A DNA stretch of 64,000 bases from Magnetococcales bacterium (GTDB lineage: Bacteria > Pseudomonadota > Magnetococcia > Magnetococcales > UBA8363), in assembly GCA_015228815.1 (NCBI GenBank), contig JADGCV010000023.1:1-64000 (forward strand), read 5' to 3'. Shown here piece by piece: positions 10,689 through 62,454 of the stretch. A model generated the notes under the pieces. It saw only the letters and a program-made list of their open reading frames with translations, was not told the origin of the DNA and searched no databases. The position numbers and the translations under genes are program-made. Position 1 is the stretch's first letter, and each line of letters opens with the position of its first letter.

Positions 10689-11840
10689 ATGGAACGCGAT
10701 CAAGCCATTAAATTCATGTTGGACGCCTTGAAGGCGATGAAGTCCCAGGGAGGATCGGATCTGTTCATCACGGCAGGCTTTCCCCCCGCATGCAAACTCG
10801 ATGGCATCCTGACCCCCCTGACCAAACAACCCCTGGAAGCCAGGGATTCCAACATCCTGGTCCGCGCCATCATGAATGATCGCCAGATCAAGGAATTCGA
10901 CGCCACCCGGGAATGCAATTTTGCCATCGCCCCCCCAGGCATTGGCCGTTTCCGTGTCAACGCCTTCGTCCAACAGGGACTGGCAGGCATGGTCCTGCGC
11001 ACCATCACCACCGACATTCCCGATTTTCAACAACTGGGTCTGCCTCCCATACTCAAGGAAGTCATCATGGCCAAGACCGGGCTGGTCCTGGTCGTCGGCG
11101 GCACCGGATCGGGTAAATCAACCACCCTGGCGGCCATGATCGGCCTGCGCAACAAGGAAACCCATGGCCACATCATCACCATCGAAGATCCCATCGAATA
11201 CGTTCATCCGCATATCAACTGCATCATCACCCAGCGCGAAGTCGGCGTCGATACCGACTCCTGGCATGCCGCCCTGAAAAACACCCTGCGCCAAGCCCCC
11301 AACGTCATTCTGATCGGCGAAATACGCGACCAGGAAACCATGGAACACGCCATCAACTTTGCCGAAACCGGACACCTCGCCCTGTCCACCCTGCATGCCA
11401 ACAACGCCAATCAGGCCCTGGATCGCATCATCAACATGTTCCCCTCCGAAAAACGGCAGCAGCTCCTCATGGATCTGTCGCTGAACATTCGCGCCATCAT
11501 CTCGCAACGATTGTTGCGCAAAAAATCCGGGGGACGGGTCGCCGCCATCGAAATCATGCTCAACTCACCGCTCATTTCCGATCTGATTTTCAAGGGAGAG
11601 GTCGTCGGCATCAAGGAAATCATGTCCCGATCCAACGAACTGGGGATGAAAACCTTCGACCAGGCGCTGTTCGATCTGCATGAAACAGATCAGATCAGCT
11701 ATGAAGATGCCCTTCGTTCCGCCGATTCCGCCAACGAACTCAGACTCCGGATCAAACTCGAAGGAAAAGCATCAAAGAATAAAAGTCATGATTCCGGACT
11801 CGAAGGTCTTTCCCTCGTCGATAAAGAGGGCGAACACTGA
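10689..11840 (+). CDS. pilU: PilT/PilU-family twitching motility ATPase
   Basis: 383 residues, close to PilU length. N-terminal SQGGSDLFITAGFPPACKLDG resembles PilU; Walker A VVGGTGSGKSTTLAAM (GGTGSGKS rather than GPTGSGKS, as in PilU), IEDPIEYVHPHINC, Walker B APNVILIGEIRDQETM and TGHLALSTLHANNANQ. LNSPLISDLI stands where PilT has AIRNLIRE. The C-terminus extends in a charged tail. PilU assists PilT in retraction under load. Start ATG at 10689 after TTGAGGAGA. Followed 33 bp later by a third paralogue. Confidence 0.88.
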   Translation: MERDQAIKFMLDALKAMKSQGGSDLFITAGFPPACKLDGILTPLTKQPLEARDSNILVRAIMNDRQIKEFDATRECNFAIAPPGIGRFRVNAFVQQGLAGMVLRTITTDIPDFQQLGLPPILKEVIMAKTGLVLVVGGTGSGKSTTLAAMIGLRNKETHGHIITIEDPIEYVHPHINCIITQREVGVDTDSWHAALKNTLRQAPNVILIGEIRDQETMEHAINFAETGHLALSTLHANNANQALDRIINMFPSEKRQQLLMDLSLNIRAIISQRLLRKKSGGRVAAIEIMLNSPLISDLIFKGEVVGIKEIMSRSNELGMKTFDQALFDLHETDQISYEDALRSADSANELRLRIKLEGKASKNKSHDSGLEGLSLVDKEGEH

Positions 11841-11873
11841 TTCGGTCCATCAGCCAATCAGGAATCCAAAGCC

Positions 11874-12929
11874 ATGGACATCACTCCCCATCTGCACCTG
11901 ATGATACAAAAAAAAGGTTCCGATCTTTTTTTCACCCCCGGAACCACCGTCAAAATGAAACTTGACGGCCAACTGGCCGCCATCGGCAAGGAAATTCTGA
12001 CCCCCGAGGTTGTCACCGCTGCGGTCATGGGAATCATGACCGACGAGCAAAAAAAGATATTCGCCGAAAATCTGGAGGTCGATTTTGCCATCGCATTGGA
12101 CGACAAAGGGCGTTTCCGGGTCAATGCCTTTCGCCAGAAGGGTCATCCCGCCATGGTGTTGCGCCTGATCTCCGCCGAGGTCCCCAACATCGATGCGTTG
12201 CATGTTCCCGAGATTCTCAAGGAACTGATCATGCACAAGCGGGGTCTGCTCCTCATGGTCGGGGGGACCGGCTCGGGAAAGTCCACAACCCTGGCCGCCA
12301 TGCTCGACCATCGCAACGCCAATGCCGGCGGCCATATCCTGACCATCGAGGACCCCGTCGAATATGTCCACCCCCACAAACGTTCCATCGTCAACCAGCG
12401 CGAACTGGGTCCCGACACCCGATCCTATGCCAATGCCCTGAAAAGCAGCCTGCGCGAGGCTCCCGACGTCATCCTCATCGGGGAAATTCGTACCCGGGAA
12501 ACCATGGAGGCGGCCCTCGAACTCGCCGGAACCGGGCATCTGGCCATTTCCACCCTGCACGCCAACAATGCCTATCAGGCCTTGACCCGGATCATCAACA
12601 TGTTTCCCCAGAGTCACCACAAACAATTATTCATGGATCTTTCCCTGTACCTGCGGGCGATCCTGTCGCAACGACTGATCCGCTCCAGGGATGGCAAACG
12701 GCGCGCCGCCGTCGAGGTCATGGTCAATACCCCCCTGATCGCCGAAAACATTCTCAAAGGCGATATCGAAGCGGTCAAAGAGGCCCTGGAAACAGGATCG
12801 GAAAAGGGAATGCAATCCTTCGATGCCGCCCTTCTCCAGCTTTATCGCGACGAAATCGTCACCCTGGAAGAGGCCCTGGCCAACGCCGATTCCAAAGCCA
12901 ACCTTGAAGCCCGGCTGCATTTTGGATGA
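11874..12929 (+). CDS. Third PilT/PilU-family ATPase
   Basis: 351 residues, similar throughout to the preceding PilU: KKGSDLFFTPGTTVKMKLDG, Walker A VGGTGSGKSTTLAAM, IEDPVEYVHPHKRS, Walker B DVILIGEIRTRETM and TGHLAISTLHANNAYQ, then VNTPLIAENIL. All core ATPase motifs are intact, so it should be active. It arose by duplication of pilU and diverged. The final codons (EARLHFG) lie inside a 97-bp direct repeat whose second copy sits 540 bp downstream. No strong ribosome site is seen before the ATG. Confidence 0.85.
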   Translation: MDITPHLHLMIQKKGSDLFFTPGTTVKMKLDGQLAAIGKEILTPEVVTAAVMGIMTDEQKKIFAENLEVDFAIALDDKGRFRVNAFRQKGHPAMVLRLISAEVPNIDALHVPEILKELIMHKRGLLLMVGGTGSGKSTTLAAMLDHRNANAGGHILTIEDPVEYVHPHKRSIVNQRELGPDTRSYANALKSSLREAPDVILIGEIRTRETMEAALELAGTGHLAISTLHANNAYQALTRIINMFPQSHHKQLFMDLSLYLRAILSQRLIRSRDGKRRAAVEVMVNTPLIAENILKGDIEAVKEALETGSEKGMQSFDAALLQLYRDEIVTLEEALANADSKANLEARLHFG

Positions 12930-43559: not shown

Positions 43560-46500
43560 TCACGATGGACTGGGGACGGCGCCATTATCGATGAGCGGAG
43601 AATCAATCTGTTGCCCTGCCGATCCGGCCGACTCGGCGGTACCCGGATCCATTCCCGACCGAACCGCCGTATCCACGATGGCGCGCACCTGATCGGGGGC
43701 TGCCGATGTTGCCCCGACCACCACCTCATAGGGTTGCCCCCCCGCCGCCAAAACCGCCTGAACCACTGCTTGGACCTCACCGCCCGCCCGGATCAGCGCT
43801 GCGGTAACCGCCCCCACATTGGCCCCGGCCTGAACGGCAGCGGTGGCCATGGCGGCAGGATTGGCCCCCGAGGCCAGAGCGGCCTGCGCCACTTCGCGAA
43901 CATCCATCCCCAATCTCGACGCCGCGGCCAGCGCCGCGCCGGCATCCCCCCCGGAAGAAATGATCGCCTGGGTCACCCCCCGTTCCCCAAGCCCCACCTG
44001 CAACGCCCCACTCATGATCGCCCCGGTATCGGCTCCCGCCGCGAGCAACGCCCGGGCGATCTCTCCAGTGTTGCCTCCCGACTGGATCGCCGCCCGGGTC
44101 AGCGCCGCCACATCCCCCCCCATGGCCATGGCCGCGGCGGCGATTTGCGCCGCATCGCCACCCGAGGCGATCGCCGCCGCCGTCACATCGACCGCATTGC
44201 CACCCGCGCCGATGGCCGCCTGGGCCATCGATTCGGGATCCCCCCCCGCACCGATGGCCGCCGCCGCCACCTGCGCCGAATCGGCCCCCGCCGCCACCGC
44301 CGCCGCCACCACCTCGGCGGGATCGATCCCCAATCCGACCGCAGCCTGAGTCAAGGTGGCCGGATCGATCCCCGCCGCCACCGCCGTGGCAATGATGTCG
44401 GCGGCACTCATCGACCCTTCGCGCTGGGCCTGCATGAGAACCACCGCTACCGGAGTTCCCGAGGCAATGGCCGAGGCCATCGCCCGTGATTCGGGAGTCT
44501 GGGGAAGTTGTACCGGTTGTTCGGAGGTCGTCAAGGAACGAGAAGCCTCCCCCGGCGCCGCCGAACCGGTTTGACCGGTTACGGAAGATGAAGAAGCCTG
44601 TGATTCCGGAGTATTTCCCCCCTCGCGCGTCGTGGCTGGGGGAGATTGTTTTCCGTCTTCGACGGGGGCGGTCGCCTTGTCGGCCTTGTCGTCCGCCTCC
44701 CTGGCCTTGTCGCCGCTGGTACGGGCCTGATCGCGAATTTCCTGAGATTGTTTAAGAACCTGAGCGATTTCCGGAGACGATGCCGCCTGGGTGACATTTT
44801 GTTTGAAGGCCTCCGTCCCGATCCCCACCGATCCGGCCACTGCCTTGACGATGGCATCAGCGGCACCAGGGCCTGCGACCTGGACCACCACGGCGGCCAC
44901 CTTGGCCGCCGTTGCGGGATCGAGGGAACGGGCCACTGCCGCCGCCACCTGGGCCGCGGCCTCGCCACCCGCGACCTGAGCGACCGCCGCCGCAACCTTG
45001 AGGGCGTTGCCGGCCCCGGCGCTCGCCATGACTGCCTCGGCCACCTTGGCCGCCGCCGCCGCGCCCGCGACCTGGGTCACCGCCGCCGCGACCAGGGCCG
45101 CCCCGTCCGGCCCCGCCGCCCTGGCCGCCGCATCCGCGACAAGGGCAGCACTGCTCACCCCAGCCGCCAGAGTCACCGCCGCCGCGACATCACCGGCCAT
45201 CTTGGCCCCCGCAACCTCAATAACTTTGGTCGCGATACTCGCCGCCGCTTCCGGGGCTGCTTTGACCGCGGCGGAAGCCACCTGGGCCGTCGCCTCGGCC
45301 CTTATCCCTTCCGGCAATCCCGAGATTGCCGCCCCCGCCGCCACCCCTGCCACCCCCGGATCCGCCGTCGCCGCGGCCTGGGCGATCAGGGATGCGGCAT
45401 CGGCATTGTCGGTCGTCCCCTTGGCGGAAACCGCCGCGCCGACAATGATCGCCGCCACCGCCCCATCCCCCTTGGGCGAGGCCTCCACGGCACTTTTGAC
45501 AATGGAGGCGACCTCCGATCCATCCTTGGCCACCGAGGCGGCCCCCTCGATGACGCCCTTCGTCGAATCCATGGTGTTGCGCCGGTTCGATTCGGCCTGT
45601 TTTTCCTGATGGGCGCCGAGGATGGCCTGGGCATCGGGAACGGTGTCGCGGGCCTCGCGTTGAAATGCCTCTCGTGCCTGAATCTGCCGCGGCGTCTGGT
45701 TTCCCGTCACGGGTTCAAGAATTCCCACCTCCGCCGCCTTGACCAGGAGGGACAGGGATCGCAACCCCTCTTCCGCCGACGCCGCCATGGCCTGCCGGAC
45801 AAACGAACCGGCCAGATGCTCCAACCATTCCCCCAGGGTGGCAACCCATCCCCGGAGCCGTTGCACCAACCAGCGCACGACGGTCCGGAACAGTCCCGAT
45901 AACGAAAAGGAATCGGAAACCGCTTTTTCCCCCCCGGAAATCTGTTGCTCCACCGACAGACGGTTGGCAAGGGCATCGGCGCGAATCTGTTCCTCCGTCA
46001 AAGGCAGTCCTTCGGGGAGTTCGTCACCGATTTCGCCGCGCAACAGCATGATCCCCTGGGCCGCGATCGCCTGGGGCAGGTGTTCGGATGCGACCGGCGG
46101 GTTGGCGGCAGCCGCCGACGCGGCATAATGGCCGTCCGAAAGATCGATCGATCCGGCGCCGGTTTGCATCGTGGCCGTCCCCTTGGGCAGATTGATGAAC
46201 TCCGGAAGGTGTTCATCGACAAACCCTTCCGCCACCGTCCCGCGGACGCCGATGGCGGCAGTGCGCGTCCGCACGGTGACATCGGAATTCTTGGTCTTGA
46301 ACCCCGAGGTCAGACGAAAGGCCCCCTTCTCCACCTTGACCGAGTTTTTGGTTGCGCTGCCGGCGGGGTTGAAGACAAATTCATCGAGGACCACCTTGCC
46401 GTCGGGACCGACGGTGAACGTCGTCCCATCGCGAAACTTGAGGATGGCGACCGCACCCGCCTTGGTGACGATCTCCTCGCCCGCCATGAGTTCATCATTG

Positions 46501-46721
46501 GCCCGGAGGGGTTTGGCCGGTTCTCCCTTGACCACCCCCTGGGCATCGCCGGTGACATGAAAAACCCGTCCGATATGAACCGGTTCCGCCTCGGCCCAGA
46601 CCGGGGCGATTGCCAATGACAGAGATCCCTCCTGGAAAACACTTCCGAAGGCCAACAAGAACGAAAGAAGAAAAGATAACAACCGACCGATCCCGCAACG
46701 CACCCCACCCACGCGCGTCAT
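43560..46721 (-). CDS. FecR-domain exported protein with two Ala-rich tandem-repeat arrays
   Basis: 1053 residues from ATG 46721, after GGGAGAAGG. Signal peptide (GRLLSFLLSFLLAFGSV...WAEAE), then a FecR-type domain at about residues 45-170: HVTGDAQGVVKGEPAKPLRANDELMAGEEIVTKAGAVAILKFRDGTTFTVGPDGKVVLDEF and VRTRTAAIGVRGTVAEGF. A helical segment with LFRTVVRWLVQRLRGWVATLGEWLE follows. Then come about ten 16-residue units, a Ser/Thr/Pro/Gln linker, and about 18 units of 14 residues. There is no anchor or transporter-signal I can recognise at the C-terminus. Divergent (273 bp) from the cytochrome-CHAT-TAXI operon. Role unknown. Confidence 0.75.
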   Translation of the reverse strand: MTRVGGVRCGIGRLLSFLLSFLLAFGSVFQEGSLSLAIAPVWAEAEPVHIGRVFHVTGDAQGVVKGEPAKPLRANDELMAGEEIVTKAGAVAILKFRDGTTFTVGPDGKVVLDEFVFNPAGSATKNSVKVEKGAFRLTSGFKTKNSDVTVRTRTAAIGVRGTVAEGFVDEHLPEFINLPKGTATMQTGAGSIDLSDGHYAASAAAANPPVASEHLPQAIAAQGIMLLRGEIGDELPEGLPLTEEQIRADALANRLSVEQQISGGEKAVSDSFSLSGLFRTVVRWLVQRLRGWVATLGEWLEHLAGSFVRQAMAASAEEGLRSLSLLVKAAEVGILEPVTGNQTPRQIQAREAFQREARDTVPDAQAILGAHQEKQAESNRRNTMDSTKGVIEGAASVAKDGSEVASIVKSAVEASPKGDGAVAAIIVGAAVSAKGTTDNADAASLIAQAAATADPGVAGVAAGAAISGLPEGIRAEATAQVASAAVKAAPEAAASIATKVIEVAGAKMAGDVAAAVTLAAGVSSAALVADAAARAAGPDGAALVAAAVTQVAGAAAAAKVAEAVMASAGAGNALKVAAAVAQVAGGEAAAQVAAAVARSLDPATAAKVAAVVVQVAGPGAADAIVKAVAGSVGIGTEAFKQNVTQAASSPEIAQVLKQSQEIRDQARTSGDKAREADDKADKATAPVEDGKQSPPATTREGGNTPESQASSSSVTGQTGSAAPGEASRSLTTSEQPVQLPQTPESRAMASAIASGTPVAVVLMQAQREGSMSAADIIATAVAAGIDPATLTQAAVGLGIDPAEVVAAAVAAGADSAQVAAAAIGAGGDPESMAQAAIGAGGNAVDVTAAAIASGGDAAQIAAAAMAMGGDVAALTRAAIQSGGNTGEIARALLAAGADTGAIMSGALQVGLGERGVTQAIISSGGDAGAALAAASRLGMDVREVAQAALASGANPAAMATAAVQAGANVGAVTAALIRAGGEVQAVVQAVLAAGGQPYEVVVGATSAAPDQVRAIVDTAVRSGMDPGTAESAGSAGQQIDSPLIDNGAVPSPS
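43632..44474 (-). repeat. Array of about 20 14-residue (42-bp) protein repeats
   Basis: Residues 750-1030 of the FecR protein. In-register units include AAVGLGIDPAEVVA, AAIGAGGDPESMAQ, AAIASGGDAAQIAA and AALASGANPAAMAT. Consensus A-A-[IV]-x-[AS]-G-[GAI]-[DN]-x-x-x-[VIML]-x-x. Sixteen units run without a gap; edge units are degenerate. Only protein-level similarity is high, so the array is old. Confidence 0.85.
44808..45284 (-). repeat. Array of about ten 16-residue protein repeats
   Basis: Residues 480-638 of the FecR protein. Units such as KVAAAVAQVAGGEAAA, QVAAAVARSLDPATAA and KVAAVVVQVAGPGAAD have a consensus [KLQ]-V-A-x-A-V-x-x-x-A-G-x-x-x-A-x. This period is distinct from the 14-residue array further on. 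Confidence 0.8.
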
Positions 46722-46994
46722 CCTTCTCCCGCGATCATGACAATATCCGAAGGAAAACAAATTCCCGATCATGGCCGACCGTTGACGAATGAATTGAAGA
46801 ACCCGAGAATCCGGAAAACAGAAACGACAAAGGACATCCCGACCGACGCCCACCGGATCATAGTATCATGTCACAGTCCGGGATTTCATCATTATTTCCA
46901 CCCGTTTCGTTGACGACAAGGGTATCATCGCGCCACGTTTTTCAGTATTCTTCCATACCAGGAACAACGTCACCCTCCGAATGCACCGTGATCC

Positions 46995-47813
46995 ATGATC
47001 CCAATCCGTACCGTGACCCTGCTGGCATGTTTCTGGCCGTTTTTACCCATTCATGCCGAATCGGACCCCCCCGCCACCCCTTTTCGCCGTTTCCTGACCG
47101 TTCCCGCCCCGTCCAAAAGCCTTGTCGAAAGCTGGAAAAACCAATCCCGTGGCGAACGCGAGGCGGCCTTGCATCTGGTCGGAAATGTCGCGAACGGTCT
47201 GCGGGTCTATCTTGAATCCTGTTCCAACAAATGTCACCTCCCCCACGGTCAGGGTTCGATCAACGGGGAATATCCACAAATCGCCGGGCAGTTGCGCGAG
47301 GTCACCATCAAACAACTGGCCGACATCCGGGCCAAGAACCGCGACAATCCCACCATGTACCGCTTTGCCCTTCCCAGCGAAATCGGCGGGGTTCAGAACA
47401 TGGCGGATGTCGCCGCCTACATCGAAACGATGCCGATGACCCTGGATACCGGCAAAGGCCCCGGCACCGAGCTGGAACTCGGTCGGCGCATTCATGACAG
47501 GGATTGCGCGATCTGTCATGGCGCCAATGGCGAGGGCAAGGCCGAACAGTATTATCCTCTGATCCAGGGCCAGCACTACGAATACATGGTGCGGCAGTAC
47601 CAATGGATTCGCGATGGACGCCGCCGCAATGCCCACCCGATGATGGTGGAACAGATTCAAGGCTACAGCCAACGCGATATTGCCGCGGTCATGGACTTTG
47701 TATCGCGACAGGTCCCCAATGCGGCCAAACTCAAGGGATCGGCTCCGTCCACCCCACCCCCTTCCCCTGTTTCCACTCCCGGGGATGATCCGCGAAAAGA
47801 TGATCTGCTATGA
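46995..47813 (+). CDS. Diheme c-type cytochrome, c553/c4-like, one site CX3CH
   Basis: 272 residues. Signal peptide (VTLLACFWPFLPIHAES). First heme site C76-SNK-C80-H81, then LPHGQGSINGEYPQIAGQ, typical of cytochromes c4/c553 except that the motif is CX3CH, not CX2CH. Second site is canonical, CAICHGANGEG, then YYPLIQGQHYEYMVRQYQ. Axial Met candidates include the MADVAAYIETMP region. It should carry electrons in the periplasm; whether heme 1 attaches is uncertain. It overlaps the CHAT gene by ATGA, and lies divergent from the FecR-repeat gene. Confidence 0.88.
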   Translation: MIPIRTVTLLACFWPFLPIHAESDPPATPFRRFLTVPAPSKSLVESWKNQSRGEREAALHLVGNVANGLRVYLESCSNKCHLPHGQGSINGEYPQIAGQLREVTIKQLADIRAKNRDNPTMYRFALPSEIGGVQNMADVAAYIETMPMTLDTGKGPGTELELGRRIHDRDCAICHGANGEGKAEQYYPLIQGQHYEYMVRQYQWIRDGRRRNAHPMMVEQIQGYSQRDIAAVMDFVSRQVPNAAKLKGSAPSTPPPSPVSTPGDDPRKDDLL

Positions 47814-50800
47814 GGCCCCCCCTTTTTCCAGGCCGTTGGCTGGCTGGCCTCCTGATGGGATTGGTCTTGTGTCTGACCGCGGCGGAGACGGTCGCCGGCG
47901 CCTCTGACCCGCTCGACCAGACGGCACAAAGCGAAGCGGACAAGGGACAGGTGGCATGGGACCAGAAGGAGATTGCCACGGCCCTGGGCCATTTTCTCGC
48001 CGCCCATGCCCTGCGCCCCGACAATCTTGATTATATCCGCAATGCCGGCACCCTCGCCATGATGGCGGGCGATCACGCCGGCGCGTTGGATCTTTTCAGA
48101 AAGGGCATCGAGACCGCGGTCCAGGCGGAGGATCGCGCGACACTGGCCCTGTTTCACGAGCAACTCGCCAAACTCCTGGAGGAATCCCTTCCGGAATGGG
48201 TCGAAAGCCGACTGGCGGCGGCGGAATCCCTCCCGGACACGCCCGAAATCCAGACCGCGGTCGCCGTGTGGAGCGCGCTCATGGAACAGGTCGCCACCCT
48301 GCGCGCCGCGGGAACACCCGACCAGGCACTGCCCCTGGCCAGGGAAGCGATGAAAACCGCCTCGACCCAATTCGGTCCCGATCATCTGGCCACCATCAAC
48401 AGCCTGCGTGAAATGGCGGCGTTGCATACCGAAATGGATCAGGGCGAACAGGCCGGGGCCATCTATCGGCAACTTCTCGAATCGGCCCGGAAATCCTTGG
48501 GGGAAGAACATCCCGAAACCCTTGCCGTCCAACAACAGATTGCCGATTTCGAACACCTGCGCGGCAACGGAGAGACGGCGGAAAAAATTCTGGAACACAT
48601 ACGACACACCCAGACCACAGCCCTTGGCCAGGATCACCCGCTGACCCTGGGGGCGGAGGTCCGATGGGCTTCCTTTCTGATCGGACAGGGACGATTCGCC
48701 GAAGCGGTCGCCATTCTTTCGCCTGTCTGTTCGCGGTATGCCGCCAGTCACGGGGAATGGCATCCCCTTGTTTTCGATTGTCACCGCAGGCATGCCGAGG
48801 CCGCCATGGGCCAGGGAGACATGAAAGAGGCGGAACGCCACTTTCTCCGCGCCCGGGATGCGAGTCGTCTGTCCGGTCCGGACACCGATCCCAAACGAAT
48901 CGAGATTCAAACCGGATTGGCCGAAAGCCTCCGCCTCCAGGCGCGGTTCGACGAGGCGGAAAAAATCCTCGCGTCCCTGCTGGCCCTGCCTCTTTCCAAG
49001 GATGCGCCGGGCGATACGGTTCGATCCCAGATGCTTGGCGCCATGGCCCGTCTGGACGAAGACATGGGCCGCTTCGGGCCGGCGGAGGATCGCTACCGTG
49101 AAGTGTTGGCCCTCGAAAAGAAAACCCTTGGAGAAAACCATCCCAACACCATCGCCACCCAGAGCGACCTGGCGGGACTGTTGCGCCGCAAGGGAGAACT
49201 GGTCCAGGCGGAAAAAATGTTCCTCGATGCCTATGAACGCTTTCGCCGCCTGCTCGGACCACGACATCCCAACACCCTGGTCGCGGCCAACGATTTTTCG
49301 CTGACTCTGGAAGAAGAGGGGCTTTACGAAACCGCCGAACCCTTGTTTCGCATGGTCTACAACCTTTCCAGCGAGGTTTTTGGCGCCGAACACCCGAGCA
49401 CGCTGGCCAATCTGAACAATCTTGCCCTGTTGTACGAAAGCCAGGGCACCTTCGACAAGGCCCAACCTCTTTATGAACAGGCCATCGCCATCGCCCGGAA
49501 GACCCGGGGCGACGGTCATCCCGATACCGTGGCCTTTCTCAACAATCTTGGCTATCTGCACATGTTGCGGGGGCATTTTACCAAGGCGCGGGAAGTATTC
49601 GACGAGGTCTACACCTCCTGGAGCGTCTCCCTGGGCGAGGAACATCAAAAAACCCTCAAGGCATTGAACAATCTGGCCCGGTCCATCCTGGGACAACAAA
49701 AGCCCCAGGAAGCCCTTTCCCTGTTCGAAAAAGCGCTCGGCCTGCGCCGTTCGGTTCTGGGCGATCGACATCCCGATACGCAACGCACCATGCTCGATCT
49801 GGGCCGGACCTTTCTGGCCCAGGGAAAGACCTCCGAGGGCCGGGACCTTCTCGCCCGCACCCTTGAACTGAATGAAACAACCCTGGGGCCGGAACATCCC
49901 TATACCTTCGAAACCCGCAATGCCCTGGCGGAGGCGTTCGAACAGGGCAACGACATGAAGGGGGCCTTTTCGGTACGCAAGGAAGGATTTGTCCGGCGCA
50001 ACCGTTTTCTTGAACGGGTTCTCTGGGTTGCCGGGGCGAATGCCCGCGAGGGATACATTCGCCTGCACCGTCCCGAGCTTGATTCCTTCATCGCGCTGTT
50101 GGCGCGCATGCCGGGGACGGATGAGGAGATCGCCCGGATGGCCCTTGACATCAGCCTGGAACGCAAAGGATTGCTGTTGAAGATTTCCTCGGAGGTTCAA
50201 CAGATCGCCACCCTTGGCCAGGACCCACAACTGGCGCCCCTGGGACAACGGTTGAAAAATCTGCGCAAGAAATTCACCGCCCTGACCCTTTCGGGACCTA
50301 CGCCGCAAACGGGAACGCGCCATCTTTCCTATCTCAATGCCCTTGAAGAAAAAATTGAACGCCTCGAAGGTGAATTGGGACGAGCGAGTCAAAAATATCG
50401 TCAGAGCGTCGCCCCCGTCGGGATCGATGACCTTGTCGCTCATCTGCCGGATCAGAGCCTTCTGGTCGATTTCATCGTCTACCACACCGATGACAAACAG
50501 ATGCTTCTGGCGGCGACCCTGCGGATGGACGAGGATACCCCCCACTTCCAACTGATCACCTACGATGATTTCGACGGCATCAAAACCCTGATCGCCGAAT
50601 TCCGCGAGAGCATCCAAAGCGAGGAATTGGAAGAGGACGAGGTCAAACAGGTCGGCCAGAAGCTGTACCGCCAGTTGTGGGGGCCCATTGCCCATGTGGC
50701 GGGTTCCCTGGAAAAGGTGTTCATCGTTCCCGATGGCCTGCTCAACATTGCCCCGTTCAACGCCCTGGTCAACGAAGAGGAGGAATTTCTCCTGAAGGCG

Positions 50801-51688
50801 GTGGATTTGTACATTCTCCCTTCGAGCCGCGATCTTGTCCCCAGGGAGACCCCGCGGGCCAAGGGTCCGATCTTCATCGTGGCGGGTCCCGATTACGATG
50901 CCAGGGAGGACGTTCTGGAGGAAAATCTGGAGGTTCTCGACAAGAAGCGCCGTTCGAGTGAATTGCCCGATGCCATGCGCGGCGCCTCCACCGGCATGCG
51001 CGGGCTCAAGTTCGATCCCCTTCCCGGTGCCGAAAAGGAAGGAAAGGTCATCATGCAGACCATCGGGCATCGCGAATCCTGGGGAAGCCGTTTTTTCAAA
51101 AAACAGGTGGCCATGGAGATGGTTTTGCGTGAGATCGCCGCATCACCTGAAATCGTGCATATCGCCACCCATGGATTTTTCCTGAAACCCGATACAACCT
51201 TGAAGAAGCGGTTGCTCAAGATGCAGCGGGGGGCCGAAACCAACATTCCTCCTCCGGGTGACAATCCCTTGTTGCGGGCCGGTTTAGCCTTCGCGGGGAT
51301 CAATCAAAGCGCTCCTTTCCTTGGAGAAATCGATACCGACAACGATGGTGTCCTGACTGCCATGGAGGTTCTGGGGCTCAATCTGGGGGGGACTCGGGTG
51401 GCGGTGTTGTCGGCGTGCGAGACCGGACTTGGGGAAATTCATGAAGGAGAGGGGGTCTACGGTTTGCGCCGTGCCTTTACCGAAGCCGGGGTCCAGACGG
51501 TGATCAATTCCCTGTGGGAGGTCAGCGACGCGGGAACCCAGGCGTTGATGACCCTGTTCTATGGCAAGTTGATGAAGGGGATCCCGGCCCATGACGCTTT
51601 GCGGGAATCCCAGATCGAACTTCTTGATTCATCCGAATGGAGCAATCCCTACATCTGGTCTGCCTTCTTCATGGTAGGAATGGGATGA
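47810..51688 (+). CDS. Exported TPR-CHAT protein (caspase-like peptidase fold)
   Basis: 1292 residues. N-terminal signal-like helix (WLAGLLMGLVLCLTAAETVAGA). Residues about 40-720 are tandem TPR units of the 42-residue type, with the recurrent LGEDHPxTLxxxxNLAxL pattern (for example FGAEHPSTLANLNNLALLYESQG). The C-terminal CHAT domain holds the two-residue catalytic pair: His1121 in HIATHGFFL and Cys1203 in LSACETGLG, then GLRRAFTEAGVQTVINSLWEV. Known CHAT proteins process peptides or regulate death and defence (Csx29 is CRISPR-linked), but I see no CRISPR here. ATGA overlaps couple it to the cytochrome and the TAXI protein. Export makes a periplasmic or surface target likely. Confidence 0.9.
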   Translation: MRPPLFPGRWLAGLLMGLVLCLTAAETVAGASDPLDQTAQSEADKGQVAWDQKEIATALGHFLAAHALRPDNLDYIRNAGTLAMMAGDHAGALDLFRKGIETAVQAEDRATLALFHEQLAKLLEESLPEWVESRLAAAESLPDTPEIQTAVAVWSALMEQVATLRAAGTPDQALPLAREAMKTASTQFGPDHLATINSLREMAALHTEMDQGEQAGAIYRQLLESARKSLGEEHPETLAVQQQIADFEHLRGNGETAEKILEHIRHTQTTALGQDHPLTLGAEVRWASFLIGQGRFAEAVAILSPVCSRYAASHGEWHPLVFDCHRRHAEAAMGQGDMKEAERHFLRARDASRLSGPDTDPKRIEIQTGLAESLRLQARFDEAEKILASLLALPLSKDAPGDTVRSQMLGAMARLDEDMGRFGPAEDRYREVLALEKKTLGENHPNTIATQSDLAGLLRRKGELVQAEKMFLDAYERFRRLLGPRHPNTLVAANDFSLTLEEEGLYETAEPLFRMVYNLSSEVFGAEHPSTLANLNNLALLYESQGTFDKAQPLYEQAIAIARKTRGDGHPDTVAFLNNLGYLHMLRGHFTKAREVFDEVYTSWSVSLGEEHQKTLKALNNLARSILGQQKPQEALSLFEKALGLRRSVLGDRHPDTQRTMLDLGRTFLAQGKTSEGRDLLARTLELNETTLGPEHPYTFETRNALAEAFEQGNDMKGAFSVRKEGFVRRNRFLERVLWVAGANAREGYIRLHRPELDSFIALLARMPGTDEEIARMALDISLERKGLLLKISSEVQQIATLGQDPQLAPLGQRLKNLRKKFTALTLSGPTPQTGTRHLSYLNALEEKIERLEGELGRASQKYRQSVAPVGIDDLVAHLPDQSLLVDFIVYHTDDKQMLLAATLRMDEDTPHFQLITYDDFDGIKTLIAEFRESIQSEELEEDEVKQVGQKLYRQLWGPIAHVAGSLEKVFIVPDGLLNIAPFNALVNEEEEFLLKAVDLYILPSSRDLVPRETPRAKGPIFIVAGPDYDAREDVLEENLEVLDKKRRSSELPDAMRGASTGMRGLKFDPLPGAEKEGKVIMQTIGHRESWGSRFFKKQVAMEMVLREIAASPEIVHIATHGFFLKPDTTLKKRLLKMQRGAETNIPPPGDNPLLRAGLAFAGINQSAPFLGEIDTDNDGVLTAMEVLGLNLGGTRVAVLSACETGLGEIHEGEGVYGLRRAFTEAGVQTVINSLWEVSDAGTQALMTLFYGKLMKGIPAHDALRESQIELLDSSEWSNPYIWSAFFMVGMG

Positions 51689-52662
51689 TGAACCGCATCG
51701 CCTCGTGTCGGAAACAGGGAAAACCCCTTGTGATCCAGTGGATCGCGCTGTGGTTGATGGTCATGGGGACATGGTGTGCCATGAGTGAACCCCAGGCGCG
51801 GGAGCGACTGGTCGTCGCGAGCGCGACCAATGCTCCTCTGATGCGGGTTGCGGCGAACGCCTTATGCCGTCTGACCGCCAGCGAAGAAGATTTTTCCTGC
51901 CGTTCCCTGGCTGCCGTCGATGCCACCGACGCCATCGACCTGTTACGCCACGGCAAAGTCCATTTTGCCATCGTCTCCAGCCGGGATGCCCTTCGCGCCT
52001 GGACGGGGGCCGCCCCTTTCAATGGCAAGGTGGAGGGACTCAGGCTTGTCTTCCGCCTCCATCCCGAGGCGGTCGTCCTGGTCGGACGCAAGGATGCGGC
52101 GATCGGCCAGTTGAAGGACATCTTCGAAAAGAGGGTCAACATTGGTCCTGCCGGGTCGGAAATCGAACAATGGGTGCTGGACCTGATGGTGGCCTGTCAG
52201 GTCTGGCCGAGCGACCTTTTGGAAATCAGACGCGAAGACCTGGCGGCAATGCCCGGGGCCTTGCATGAGGGGCGGATCGATGCCTTTTTCGTGATGGGCG
52301 GACATCCGGCCCGGGTGATCGGTCCGATGGGAAAGCAATCCTCCATCGACCTCGTCCCCTTGAATGATCCCTGCATCGATGGGTTGATCAAAAACCATCC
52401 CTCCGTGCGCAAGATGGTGATCGAAGGAAAAACCTATCCTGGGATCATCCGCGACGTTCCGACCTTTGGCACCGACGCGCTGCTCCTGACCCATGCGGAA
52501 GTTTCTCCGAAACTCGTTGGTCTCTTTGCGGAGTTTCTGTTGCGCAACATTGACGATTTCCGGCAACGGCACTCCGCCTTTGCCCCCATCGACAGAAAAA
52601 CTCTGCGCCTGCGCTTTCCCATCCCCCACCATCGAGGAATGAAAGGCTTGGTGGATCCCTGA
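51685..52662 (+). CDS. TAXI-type TRAP transporter solute-binding protein
   Basis: 325 residues. Signal peptide (IQWIALWLMVMGTWCAMSE), then a two-lobed binding-protein fold typical of the TAXI family: RLVVASATNAPLMRVAANAL, DATDAIDLLRHGKVHFAIVSSRDAL, VNIGPAGSEIEQWVLDLM and GRIDAFFVMGGHPARVI. Membrane subunits of a TRAP transporter are absent from the window. Start ATG 51685 overlaps the CHAT stop (51686-51688); ATG 51688 is the alternative. A long hairpin element follows. Its tie to CHAT suggests a sensor role rather than plain uptake; inferred only. Confidence 0.85.
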   Translation: MMNRIASCRKQGKPLVIQWIALWLMVMGTWCAMSEPQARERLVVASATNAPLMRVAANALCRLTASEEDFSCRSLAAVDATDAIDLLRHGKVHFAIVSSRDALRAWTGAAPFNGKVEGLRLVFRLHPEAVVLVGRKDAAIGQLKDIFEKRVNIGPAGSEIEQWVLDLMVACQVWPSDLLEIRREDLAAMPGALHEGRIDAFFVMGGHPARVIGPMGKQSSIDLVPLNDPCIDGLIKNHPSVRKMVIEGKTYPGIIRDVPTFGTDALLLTHAEVSPKLVGLFAEFLLRNIDDFRQRHSAFAPIDRKTLRLRFPIPHHRGMKGLVDP

Positions 52663-52675
52663 AAACCAATTCAAA

Positions 52676-52738
52676 ATTATTGAAAGAAAAAAGGGGTCTG
52701 GGGGATTAGCCCCCAGACCCCTTTTTTCTTTCAATAAT
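52676..52738. repeat. 29-bp perfect hairpin, dispersed extragenic element
   Basis: Starts ATTATTGAAAGAAAAAAGG, then GGTCTGGGGG, a 5-nt loop, and the exact complement: a perfect 29-bp stem. It resembles the right arm at about 10593-10640, including the flank CC-GAACCGGGG. With A and T runs on both sides it should also stop transcription in both directions, between the TAXI gene and the convergent HybE-like gene. Confidence 0.85.
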
Positions 52739-53415: not shown

Positions 53416-54396
53416 TCAGAAAAAAGTTCCATCCAGAGGACTCGAAGCAGTGGCATAGAGTTTTCTGGGAATTCTTCCCGACAAATAGGCGTCACGCCCC
53501 GCCTGGACAGCGCGTCGCATCGCCCGCGCCATCCGTACCGGATCCCTTGCCCCGGCAATGGCAGTATTCATGAGAACCCCGTCACACCCCAACTCCATCG
53601 CCAAGGCCGCATCGGAAGCAGTCCCCACCCCCGCGTCCACCAACACCGGAACCTTGGCCTGCTCGATGATGATGCGAATGGTATAGGGATTGCGGACTCC
53701 CAATCCGGAACCGATCGGCGCAGCCAGAGGCATGACCGCAACACAACCCATCTGTTCGAATACCTGACACAAATAAGGGTCGTCGGTCGTGTACACCATG
53801 ACCTTGAAGCCGTCGCGAATCAACACCTCGGCAGCCTTGAGTGTCTCGGGATTGTTGGGCCACAGGTATTTGGGATCGGAAAGGACCTCCAGCTTCACCA
53901 GATCCCACCCACCCGCCTCCCGCGCCAGACGAAGAGTCCGCACCGCATCCTCGGCGGTGAAACAACCAGCCGTGTTGGGCAGATAGGTGTATTTTTTGGG
54001 ATCCAGATAGTCGGTCAACATGGGCGCCTTGGGATCGCTGACATTGACCCGCCGCACCGCGACCGTGACGATCTCGGCCCCCGAAGCCTCGATTGCCGCC
54101 CTGGTCTCGTCGAAATCCTTGTATTTTCCCGTCCCCACCAAAAGCCGACTGCCAAAAGAACGCCCCGCCACCACCAGAGGATCGGCCACTTCCTCCTGAC
54201 CACCACCGATAAAATGAACCACCTCCACCCGATCGCCATCCGTCAAAAAAATCTCGGCAAAACGCTCCCTCCGGGCCACTTCAAGATTGCGTTCCACCGC
54301 CACCCGCCCCGGTTCAAACCCCAGACGAGCCAAAAGCCCGGCGATGGTCGTAGGCTCGGCCAGCTCGGTCGATTCGCCATTGAGAATGATCTTCAT
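53416..54396 (-). CDS. thiG: ThiS-ThiG fusion (sulfur carrier + thiazole synthase)
   Basis: 326 residues. Residues 1-66 are Thi[28 protein letters not shown] and [33 protein letters not shown]. The rest is Thi[63 protein letters not shown], and [35 protein letters not shown]. ThiG builds the thiamine thiazole ring, with sulfur carried as the thiocarboxylate at the ThiS C-terminal Gly-Gly. Here Gly-Gly-Gly is internal (about residues 67-69), so a free thiocarboxylate needs cleavage or another carrier. Start ATG 54396 chosen because ThiS begins there. Confidence 0.92.
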
Positions 54397-55011
54397 GATT
54401 CCCTTCACTCCCTGTCTCACGCCACCGCCCACGGTGGCCATCGTCACCAGAACGCCATTCTAGCCAATTCAGACTTGAGGACAAGGAATTTCCACGTGGT
54501 ATCCCCCTGGAAAGAAATTGATGATATGCCATTATTGAAGAAACAGACAATTGACAAACCAAGCAGGATTCAGAAGACAATCCATGGTATATGAAAACAT
54601 TATCGATATGTAAAATTTACACATTTTTTCACAATCATCCGCCATCTAATATATTTTATTTACAATAAAATATATTATCATACATATTCCATTGAAACGC
54701 CACTCAATTCTCAACGTCTCATCACAAAAATATATTGCTGATAATTAAATAAGCGCGATATACTGTAACAGCAATGAAGAAAGAATGCCGCACAAGGATC
54801 TGTCAATCCTCTGGTCATGGCCATCGGCGTCGTGCGTCACGAAGGCAAGTACACGTTTCATGATGTCAGCGCAATCGCCCTCTCCGGCATCTCCTGCACC
54901 CTGGCCCTTTGGCTGATGCGACTGTAGGGAAATCTTGACAATTCAATGGAAATATGGCATAGCCTCGTGACTGATGAAGCGTGATCGGAGGGCCTTAACG
55001 GAGATCCACAC
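54397..55011. other. A/T-rich intergenic region with a transporter relic
   Basis: 54520-54780 is distinctly A/T-rich compared with its GC-rich surroundings (runs of ATATATTTTATT type) and holds no gene I can support. It likely contains promoters for thiS-thiG and cheV, but none is clear. 54778-54927 is listed separately. Confidence 0.55.
54778..54927 (+). pseudogene. C-terminal scrap of a membrane transporter
   Basis: Open frame reads GSVNPLVMAIGVVRHEGKYTF then an amphipathic SAIALSGISCTLALWLMRL to a TAG. The pattern resembles the C-terminal helix of NhaD/ArsB-type ion transporters (..GKYTFxxxLKxxxxIALGY...). No upstream reading frame continues it (stop at 54775). Possibly transfer debris. 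Confidence 0.3.
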
Positions 55012-61272: not shown

Positions 61273-62454
61273 ATGCCCCTTTTCGGCCCAAAATATAAAC
61301 CCATTGTCGGCCTGGATATAGGGACATCGGTGATTCGGGCCATGGAAGTCCGTCCCCATGGACGCCACTGGCGCCTTCTGCGTTGTCATCAGGCCCCCCT
61401 CCCGCCATTCATGCTCGCCGACGGAAAAATAAAAAAATCGGACGAAGCGGTCGATTTCATCGGAAACTTCCACAAGGAAGGGCGATTCACCACCCCCAGG
61501 ATCGCCCTTTCCGTCGGCGGCCCCTCGATCATCAGCAAAAAAATCATCGTCGATCGCATGAGCGAAATGGACCTCGAAGACCAGATCACCCTCGAAGCGG
61601 AAGAATACATCCCATTCGACATCGACGAAGTCTTCCTCGATTTCCAGATCCTGGGCGACGCCGAGGAACGAATGGCCGTCCTCCTGACCGCCTGCAAAAA
61701 AGATTTTGTCAACGACAAACTCGAATTATGCCGACTCGCCGGTCTCGATCCCGTGTTTCTCGACCTCGACTGCCTCTGCATCGCCAATGCCCATGCCGCT
61801 TTCCATGAGGACCCCGTCGGAAAAAGAAAAGAAAGAAAACCCTTCTTTTCCCTGACAAGAAAACCGAAAGCTGGCGCGAAAAGTGCATTAAAACCCGGAG
61901 CATCGACCACAGGCTCCCGCGGCGGCGCGGAACATTCCGCCGCCGACATCGTCGCCCTGGCCAACATCGGGGGCCAACATCTCAATACCGTCATCCTGGT
62001 CGATGGCAAGATCGACTATACCCGGGATCTGTCCTTTGGCGCCCGGTCCCTGATGAACGAACTGACAGAGCAGACAGGTTGGACGATGGACGAATTGCAC
62101 CAGTCCCTGAAAAATCCCGACTCCGCCGCTCCCGCATCGGCGCTGCACGAGGCCTGGGACAACCTGATCCTCCCCTTCGAAACCAAACTCGCCGGCCAAA
62201 TCCGGCAATCCCTCGATTTTTTTCAGGCCTCCCGTCCCCACAAGGAAACAGCCGGCATCCTCCTGCTGTCGGGAGGAGCGACGGTGATCGCCGGAATCGA
62301 ACAACGGCTGTCACAAACGTTGGGCCTCCCGGTGGCGATTTTCGATCCCGCGGGCAAACTCAAGAAGGATCGCGGTCCCCGCGGTCCGCGAATGGAGCAT
62401 CCGGTCGGCTTTGCCGTCGCCCTGGGTCTGGCCTTGCGGGGTCTGTCGCCGTGA
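61273..62454 (+). CDS. pilM: Type IV pilus inner-membrane platform protein PilM
   Basis: 393 residues with an actin/FtsA-like fold: IVGLDIGTSVIRAM phosphate-1 loop, a central insert rich in Lys/Pro around residues 180-215, VALANIGGQHLNTVILVDGKIDYTRDL, and ILLLSGGATVIAGIEQRL near the C-terminus. PilM binds PilN's N-terminal peptide and ATP in the cytoplasm. Start ATG 61273. Stop overlaps pilN (GTGA). Divergent from mrcA, the frequent genomic arrangement in proteobacteria. Confidence 0.94.
   Translation: MPLFGPKYKPIVGLDIGTSVIRAMEVRPHGRHWRLLRCHQAPLPPFMLADGKIKKSDEAVDFIGNFHKEGRFTTPRIALSVGGPSIISKKIIVDRMSEMDLEDQITLEAEEYIPFDIDEVFLDFQILGDAEERMAVLLTACKKDFVNDKLELCRLAGLDPVFLDLDCLCIANAHAAFHEDPVGKRKERKPFFSLTRKPKAGAKSALKPGASTTGSRGGAEHSAADIVALANIGGQHLNTVILVDGKIDYTRDLSFGARSLMNELTEQTGWTMDELHQSLKNPDSAAPASALHEAWDNLILPFETKLAGQIRQSLDFFQASRPHKETAGILLLSGGATVIAGIEQRLSQTLGLPVAIFDPAGKLKKDRGPRGPRMEHPVGFAVALGLALRGLSP

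Follow-up and report, generated by a model that had tools for sequence, protein, structure and literature searches.

A Magnetococcales locus linking a putative envelope TPR-CHAT peptidase to a FecR-domain surface protein, a cytochrome and a TAXI binding protein

The TPR-CHAT protein of Craspase (Csx29) and separase are cytosolic or nuclear, and are controlled by RNA targeting or securin. Both have a CHAT/caspase-type fold, a His-Cys pair and a helical repeat array, as does the TPR-CHAT protein described here; in contrast to Craspase, its locus has no RNA-guided partner. DdvA (8rot, 8rw5), which is membrane-anchored and CHAT-containing, was the only PDB sequence match of the CHAT profile at E < 0.001, but it is a single anti-sigma protein and only its CHAT part aligns with the protein described here, over 86 columns. 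In Magnetococcales, the mtx (magnetotaxis) cluster includes MtxA and a CHASE2 adenylate/guanylate cyclase, with a "Sel1 domain" protein in Magnetofaba IT-1 and MC-1 (PMC4439547, PMC5088516); the IT-1 gene list gives a Sel1-domain protein, mtxA and the cyclase (PMC5088516), and deleting mtxA is reported to have given no clear phenotype. We infer that the "Sel1 domain" protein of IT-1 and MC-1 is a TPR-CHAT, which suggests that a component of this poorly understood cluster, recorded as a Sel1-domain protein in one genome paper, is an exported caspase-like protein.

The window, the whole stretch of 64,000 nucleotides analyzed here (positions 1-64,000 of contig JADGCV010000023.1), belongs to the genome of a magnetotactic Magnetococcales bacterium (GCA_015228815.1; hereafter G000, 99% complete) with a MamA match above its curated cut-off. 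A sequence-only reading of the window had described three genes, for a cytochrome, a TPR-CHAT protein and a TAXI protein, overlapping by ATGA-type contacts, and the coordinates and overlaps bear this out (Table 1): the cytochrome and TPR-CHAT genes share an ATGA, and the TPR-CHAT and TAXI genes share a second if the TAXI start is at 51685, which is probably the case, rather than at 51637. The corresponding junctions in two orthologous loci (genomes G002 and G007) touch or overlap too, with ATGA at the first and TAATG and GTGATGA at the second. The divergent exported FecR neighbor of that reading was likewise recovered, with a signal peptide and a FecR domain above the Pfam cut-off of 24; its gene probably starts near 46721, though an in-frame GTG further upstream at 46853 is possible. 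Promoter-like sites in the divergent intergenic region were not above chance. The hairpin following the TAXI stop, present in a single copy between convergent genes, is probably a bidirectional terminator ending the transcription unit, and a large antisense ORF facing the CHAT gene was treated as a by-product of base composition. A small conserved gene of ~92 aa lies between the FecR and cytochrome genes of G002 and G007 (L080:6642-6968 and L082:3701-4084); it is missing in the window, and is present elsewhere in genomes G001, G003 and G006.

Table 1. Features of the locus, in window coordinates.
Feature	Coordinates	Strand	Details
FecR-domain repeat protein	43560..46721	-	Signal peptide, FecR beta-domain, two short-helical-repeat arrays; PF04773 29.9 bits, AF2 model
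Divergent intergenic region	46722..46994	.	
Exported c-type cytochrome	46995..47813	+	Heme motifs CX3CH (C76) and CXXCH (C171); C-terminus DDLL
TPR-CHAT protein, 1292 aa	47810..51688	+	Signal-peptide-like N-terminus; nine TPR_12 stretches
CHAT peptidase domain, residues 947-1290	50648..51679	+	Pfam CHAT 248.7 bits; fold like Craspase TPR-CHAT and separase
Catalytic His1121 codon (ATHGF)	51170..51172	+	Invariant column
Catalytic Cys1203 codon (SACETG)	51416..51418	+	Invariant column
TAXI-family solute-binding protein, exported	51685..52662	+	TIGR02122 153.5 bits vs cut-off 84.35
29-bp perfect hairpin, T/A-rich arms	52676..52738	.	-51 kcal/mol, z -10.7

The sequence-only reading of the central gene as a 1292-residue TPR-CHAT protein with a signal peptide and an intact His1121/Cys1203 pair agrees with the length, residues and signal-peptide-like N-terminus found here. 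Its CHAT domain scores above the Pfam cut-off and contains both catalytic residues of a cysteine peptidase, whose columns are invariant in an alignment of 45 sequences. Residues 763-1292, modeled with AlphaFold2 (pLDDT 79), have fold matches in Craspase TPR-CHAT, separase, DdvA and SAVED-CHAT, the best being Craspase TPR-CHAT (8d9f, E 1.5e-14) and separase. By a simple home-made signal-peptide rule (not SignalP), every complete TPR-CHAT homologue found in the order (50 of 50) has a signal-peptide-like N-terminus, compared with 8 of 34 cytosolic-type controls; the eight passing controls show how coarse the rule is, yet the two groups differ clearly. Exported TPR-CHATs had been implied to be rare. 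Instead, export prevails throughout the order and is common in the rest of a phylum sample of 399 genomes, with 10 of the 17 distant TPR-CHATs from other orders passing the same rule. Close relatives of the window protein occur in most Magnetococcales genomes, and outside the order only G290 in the phylum sample encodes one of comparable identity. From its sequence and modeled fold, we infer that the TPR-CHAT protein is a periplasmic cysteine peptidase of the caspase/separase type. The CHAT fold common to Craspase and SAVED-CHAT could also point to a defense or cell-suicide system like those of known CHAT defense proteins. This is very improbable, as the N-termini are signal-peptide-like, the distribution is order-wide, PADLOC returned a generic TPR match only, and no Cas7-11/gRAMP or SAVED partner was found among the neighbors scanned.

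The window locus resembles the mtx cluster in that both contain a homologous exported TPR-CHAT, which in mtx stands first, followed by an exported partner; the mtx TPR-CHATs of the genus are 48-51% identical to the window's, with Sel1 repeats in the one member scanned. The two differ in that the window locus has no adjacent MtxA and no CHASE2 cyclase, and has the cytochrome, TAXI and FecR repeat proteins instead. G000 retains a separate TPR-CHAT-MtxA locus on contig C59. In the order sample (Magnetococcales genomes, with families numbered f1, f2 and so on), TPR-CHAT adjoins MtxA at 18 loci in families f1, f2, f3, f5, f6 and f12, and a CHASE2 cyclase accompanies the pair at 14 of these; the tree makes this arrangement the probable ancestral state. 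The window TPR-CHAT clade (support 100/100) is not nested within the mtx TPR-CHATs of the genus, though its deep placement is weak; a third TPR-CHAT clade of the genus has no constant partners. These comparisons identify the window locus as a putative lineage-specific paralogue or variant of the Magnetococcales mtx TPR-CHAT module. Its earlier description as a candidate undescribed envelope system fits the combination of cytochrome, TPR-CHAT, TAXI and FecR, of which no description was found in the literature searched, but overlooked the mtx cluster as its parent. A possible FecR-like identity for the N-terminus of MtxA (DUF7354; e.g. L054:11363-12304) was weak and was set aside (hhalign P 0.0015, probability 17%).

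The prevalence of the MtxA-cyclase arrangement suggests an alternative: the TPR-CHAT may be an envelope signaling scaffold that relays periplasmic ligand or redox state through its partners, without cleaving, toward an output elsewhere in the genome. For the CHAT-cyclase linkage in mtx, signaling without substrate cleavage fits equally well, and DdvA offers a solved CHAT-containing transmembrane anti-sigma factor that is similar in fold and sequence. However, the His and Cys are invariant, which a pure scaffold would not need, and the window locus has neither a cyclase nor a sigma gene. We regard a scaffold role here as unlikely, though a serious contender.

All four genes occur in identical order in three of the eight genomes/species of the genus sample: G000, its congener G002 (Magnetococcales bacterium DCbin4) and G007. 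The other five species lack the set, among them G005 (99% complete) and G006 (97%), and a scan of genome contigs returned only one locus, that of DCbin4. G000 and G002 have a common upstream flank that includes FlhB, an AI-2E transporter and FecR; G007 has different flanks, with an mtx-type TPR-CHAT a few kb past its FecR gene. Amino-acid identity among the three loci is 78-80% for the cytochrome, 71-74% for CHAT, 64-71% for FecR and 46-51% for TAXI. Where dS is defined, dN/dS is ~0.1-0.2 for every gene (NG86; dS near saturation): all four are under purifying selection, and the locus is real and conserved rather than an artefact. Co-occurrence, which the earlier reading had proposed to count, is complete within this clade, where cytochrome, TAXI and FecR are kept in all three orthologue-bearing genomes, but it does not extend further: an order-wide search found no TAXI or cytochrome relatives adjoining other TPR-CHATs of the family, and their linkage to TPR-CHAT is known from one clade of three genomes. 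The free variation of neighbors in related genomes that the earlier reading named as refuting is therefore borne out in part. One cytochrome ~5 kb from another CHAT gene (G026:C43) looked incidental.

The cytochrome is, as first read, an exported c-type protein, but its description as diheme needs correction: the second heme motif is CXXCH (C171), while the first is a noncanonical CX3CH (C76-SNK-C80-H81) in all three orthologues. Members of this cytochrome family with two CXXCH motifs also occur in clusters of other families that were read from their sequences as nos-type (N2O reductase); CX3CH at heme 1 is instead common to the window orthologues and to TPR-cytochromes beside TolC and giant FecR proteins (G000:C11, G005). 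On contig C11 of G000 (L110:6643-17477), a TolC-like protein, a TPR-cytochrome c lipoprotein with CX3CH and a FecR/cadherin giant of 2466 aa lie together; L114 has a similar TolC-like/TPR-cytochrome/FecR run with a giant of ~2100 aa.

The TAXI protein scores above the TIGR02122 cut-off and has TAXI relatives in the PDB. The earlier observation that no transporter subunits lie nearby holds for the locus, which has no TRAP permease gene in its vicinity, and extends to the whole genome: DctM had no matches in G000 or G007, and one in G002. Since G000 is 99% complete and lacks DctM, the protein is an orphan binding protein, and a TRAP transporter at the locus was rejected. TAXI evolves quickly, and its ligand need not be fixed. 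Could ordinary co-transcription account for the arrangement, with a cytochrome of respiration and the binding protein of a transporter flanking the CHAT gene by chance? The nos-type relatives of the cytochrome and the presence of TAXI paralogues throughout the order would fit this explanation, which is nonetheless rather improbable: the translational overlaps and gene order are retained in three species, one with changed context, two of the three genomes lack the DctM permease, and the CX3CH subfamily is distinct from the nos-type cytochromes.

The link to FecR-domain surface proteins is broader. With a FecR profile seeded in part from these same loci, TPR-CHAT genes adjoin FecR genes in four lineages: the window clade; f7, with giant FecR proteins directly 3' of TPR-CHAT at seven loci; f12, where the FecR gene is divergent; and f2, in which the TPR-CHAT, MtxA and cyclase genes are preceded by one for a relative of the FecR protein in the window. 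With the Pfam FecR model alone, the adjacency holds in two lineages and nine genomes. By our estimate, with 1-9 FecR domains per ~4 Mb genome, chance would place a FecR gene no more than 1.5 kb from any one CHAT gene in well below 1% of cases. Given the recurrence in four lineages, the FecR protein, first proposed as a possible substrate or scaffold, is a likely partner. In its AF2 model, a FecR beta-domain is accompanied by two arrays of helical repeats, the arrays mostly at pLDDT 80-95. Over 61 columns the FecR domain superposes with an rmsd of 1.2 on 5ix9, a cell-surface anchoring domain of an RTX adhesin (prob 1.00, target-based TM 0.75), though with an E-value of 0.22; a PDB fold search with the whole repeat protein gave nothing at E < 0.001. 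A classical FecI/FecR regulator was rejected, as the N-terminus is signal-peptide-like rather than that of a cytoplasmic anti-sigma protein and no sigma gene was found among the neighbors scanned. Relatives of the FecR protein in f9 and G006 adjoin secretin-type genes, as read from the sequences. At L066:7998-11708 (G012:C323), a TPR-CHAT with its N-terminus cut by the contig end retains, upstream of its TPRs, the final part of a FecR-like domain (RTPTARINVRGT), and is possibly a FecR-TPR-CHAT fusion.

The unusual CX3CH heme site, in a cytochrome whose gene is first in the operon, raises the alternative that the peptidase performs envelope quality control or maturation of the cytochrome or other exported proteins, with the FecR neighbor incidental. 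This is improbable, given that FecR adjacency recurs in separate lineages and that the CX3CH cytochrome is also found without CHAT. On the gene associations and predicted folds, the reading we prefer, though tentatively and at somewhat less than even confidence, is an envelope TPR-CHAT peptidase working with the FecR-domain surface protein, with the cytochrome and TAXI proteins as inputs. The TPR-CHAT would be a periplasmic cysteine peptidase of the caspase/separase type, its TPR superhelix docking the FecR-domain protein; the TAXI protein would signal ligand and the cytochrome redox or respiratory state, and the triggered CHAT domain would cleave or remodel the FecR protein and thereby alter the cell surface. 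The four-gene set may serve to monitor the surroundings and to cut or regulate proteins at the cell surface. If FecR-domain cleavage does occur, Craspase and separase would have a counterpart in the periplasm, and surface attachment or motility would be controlled in a new way.

TPR-CHATs of this type also occur repeatedly beside secretion genes and putative surface adhesins. Type I secretion runs include TPR-CHAT-TolC-ABC-HlyD-PEGA in f9, a clade that groups as sister with the FecR clade of f7 (98/95), and TolC-ABC-HlyD-TPR-CHAT in f8; TPR-CHAT lies in one run with TolC, ABC and HlyD at L091, L041, L059, L095 and L087. Like LapG/LapA, the related loci associate a predicted cysteine peptidase of the envelope with giant surface proteins and type I secretion. 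LapG, however, belongs to family C93 and is unrelated to CHAT, and the window's FecR protein differs from LapA in having a signal peptide, with no type I secretion genes seen nearby. No C93 peptidase was found in G000, G002 or G007, whereas three of the five genus genomes without the window locus have one; eight genomes are too few to establish a replacement of LapG within the genus. In these three (G001, G004 and G006) its neighbors are type I secretion genes, joined in G001 and G006 by the gene for a giant surface protein; C93 genes adjoin type I secretion genes at L150, L151 and L157. C93 thereby occupies the place held by TPR-CHAT in the f9 loci, which suggests, without proving, that the two are functionally analogous. 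A wider proposal, that exported TPR-CHAT peptidases serve Magnetococcales generally in controlling FecR-anchored surface proteins, as LapG does elsewhere, with the window locus gated by ligand and redox state and mtx wired to a cyclic-nucleotide cyclase, appears unlikely to us. Elsewhere in the window, a single ORF at 53416-54447 carries fused ThiS and ThiG domains (each above its Pfam cut-off), two tandem T2SSE-family ATPase genes (pilT-like) occupy 10689-12929, and PilM is encoded at 61273-62454.
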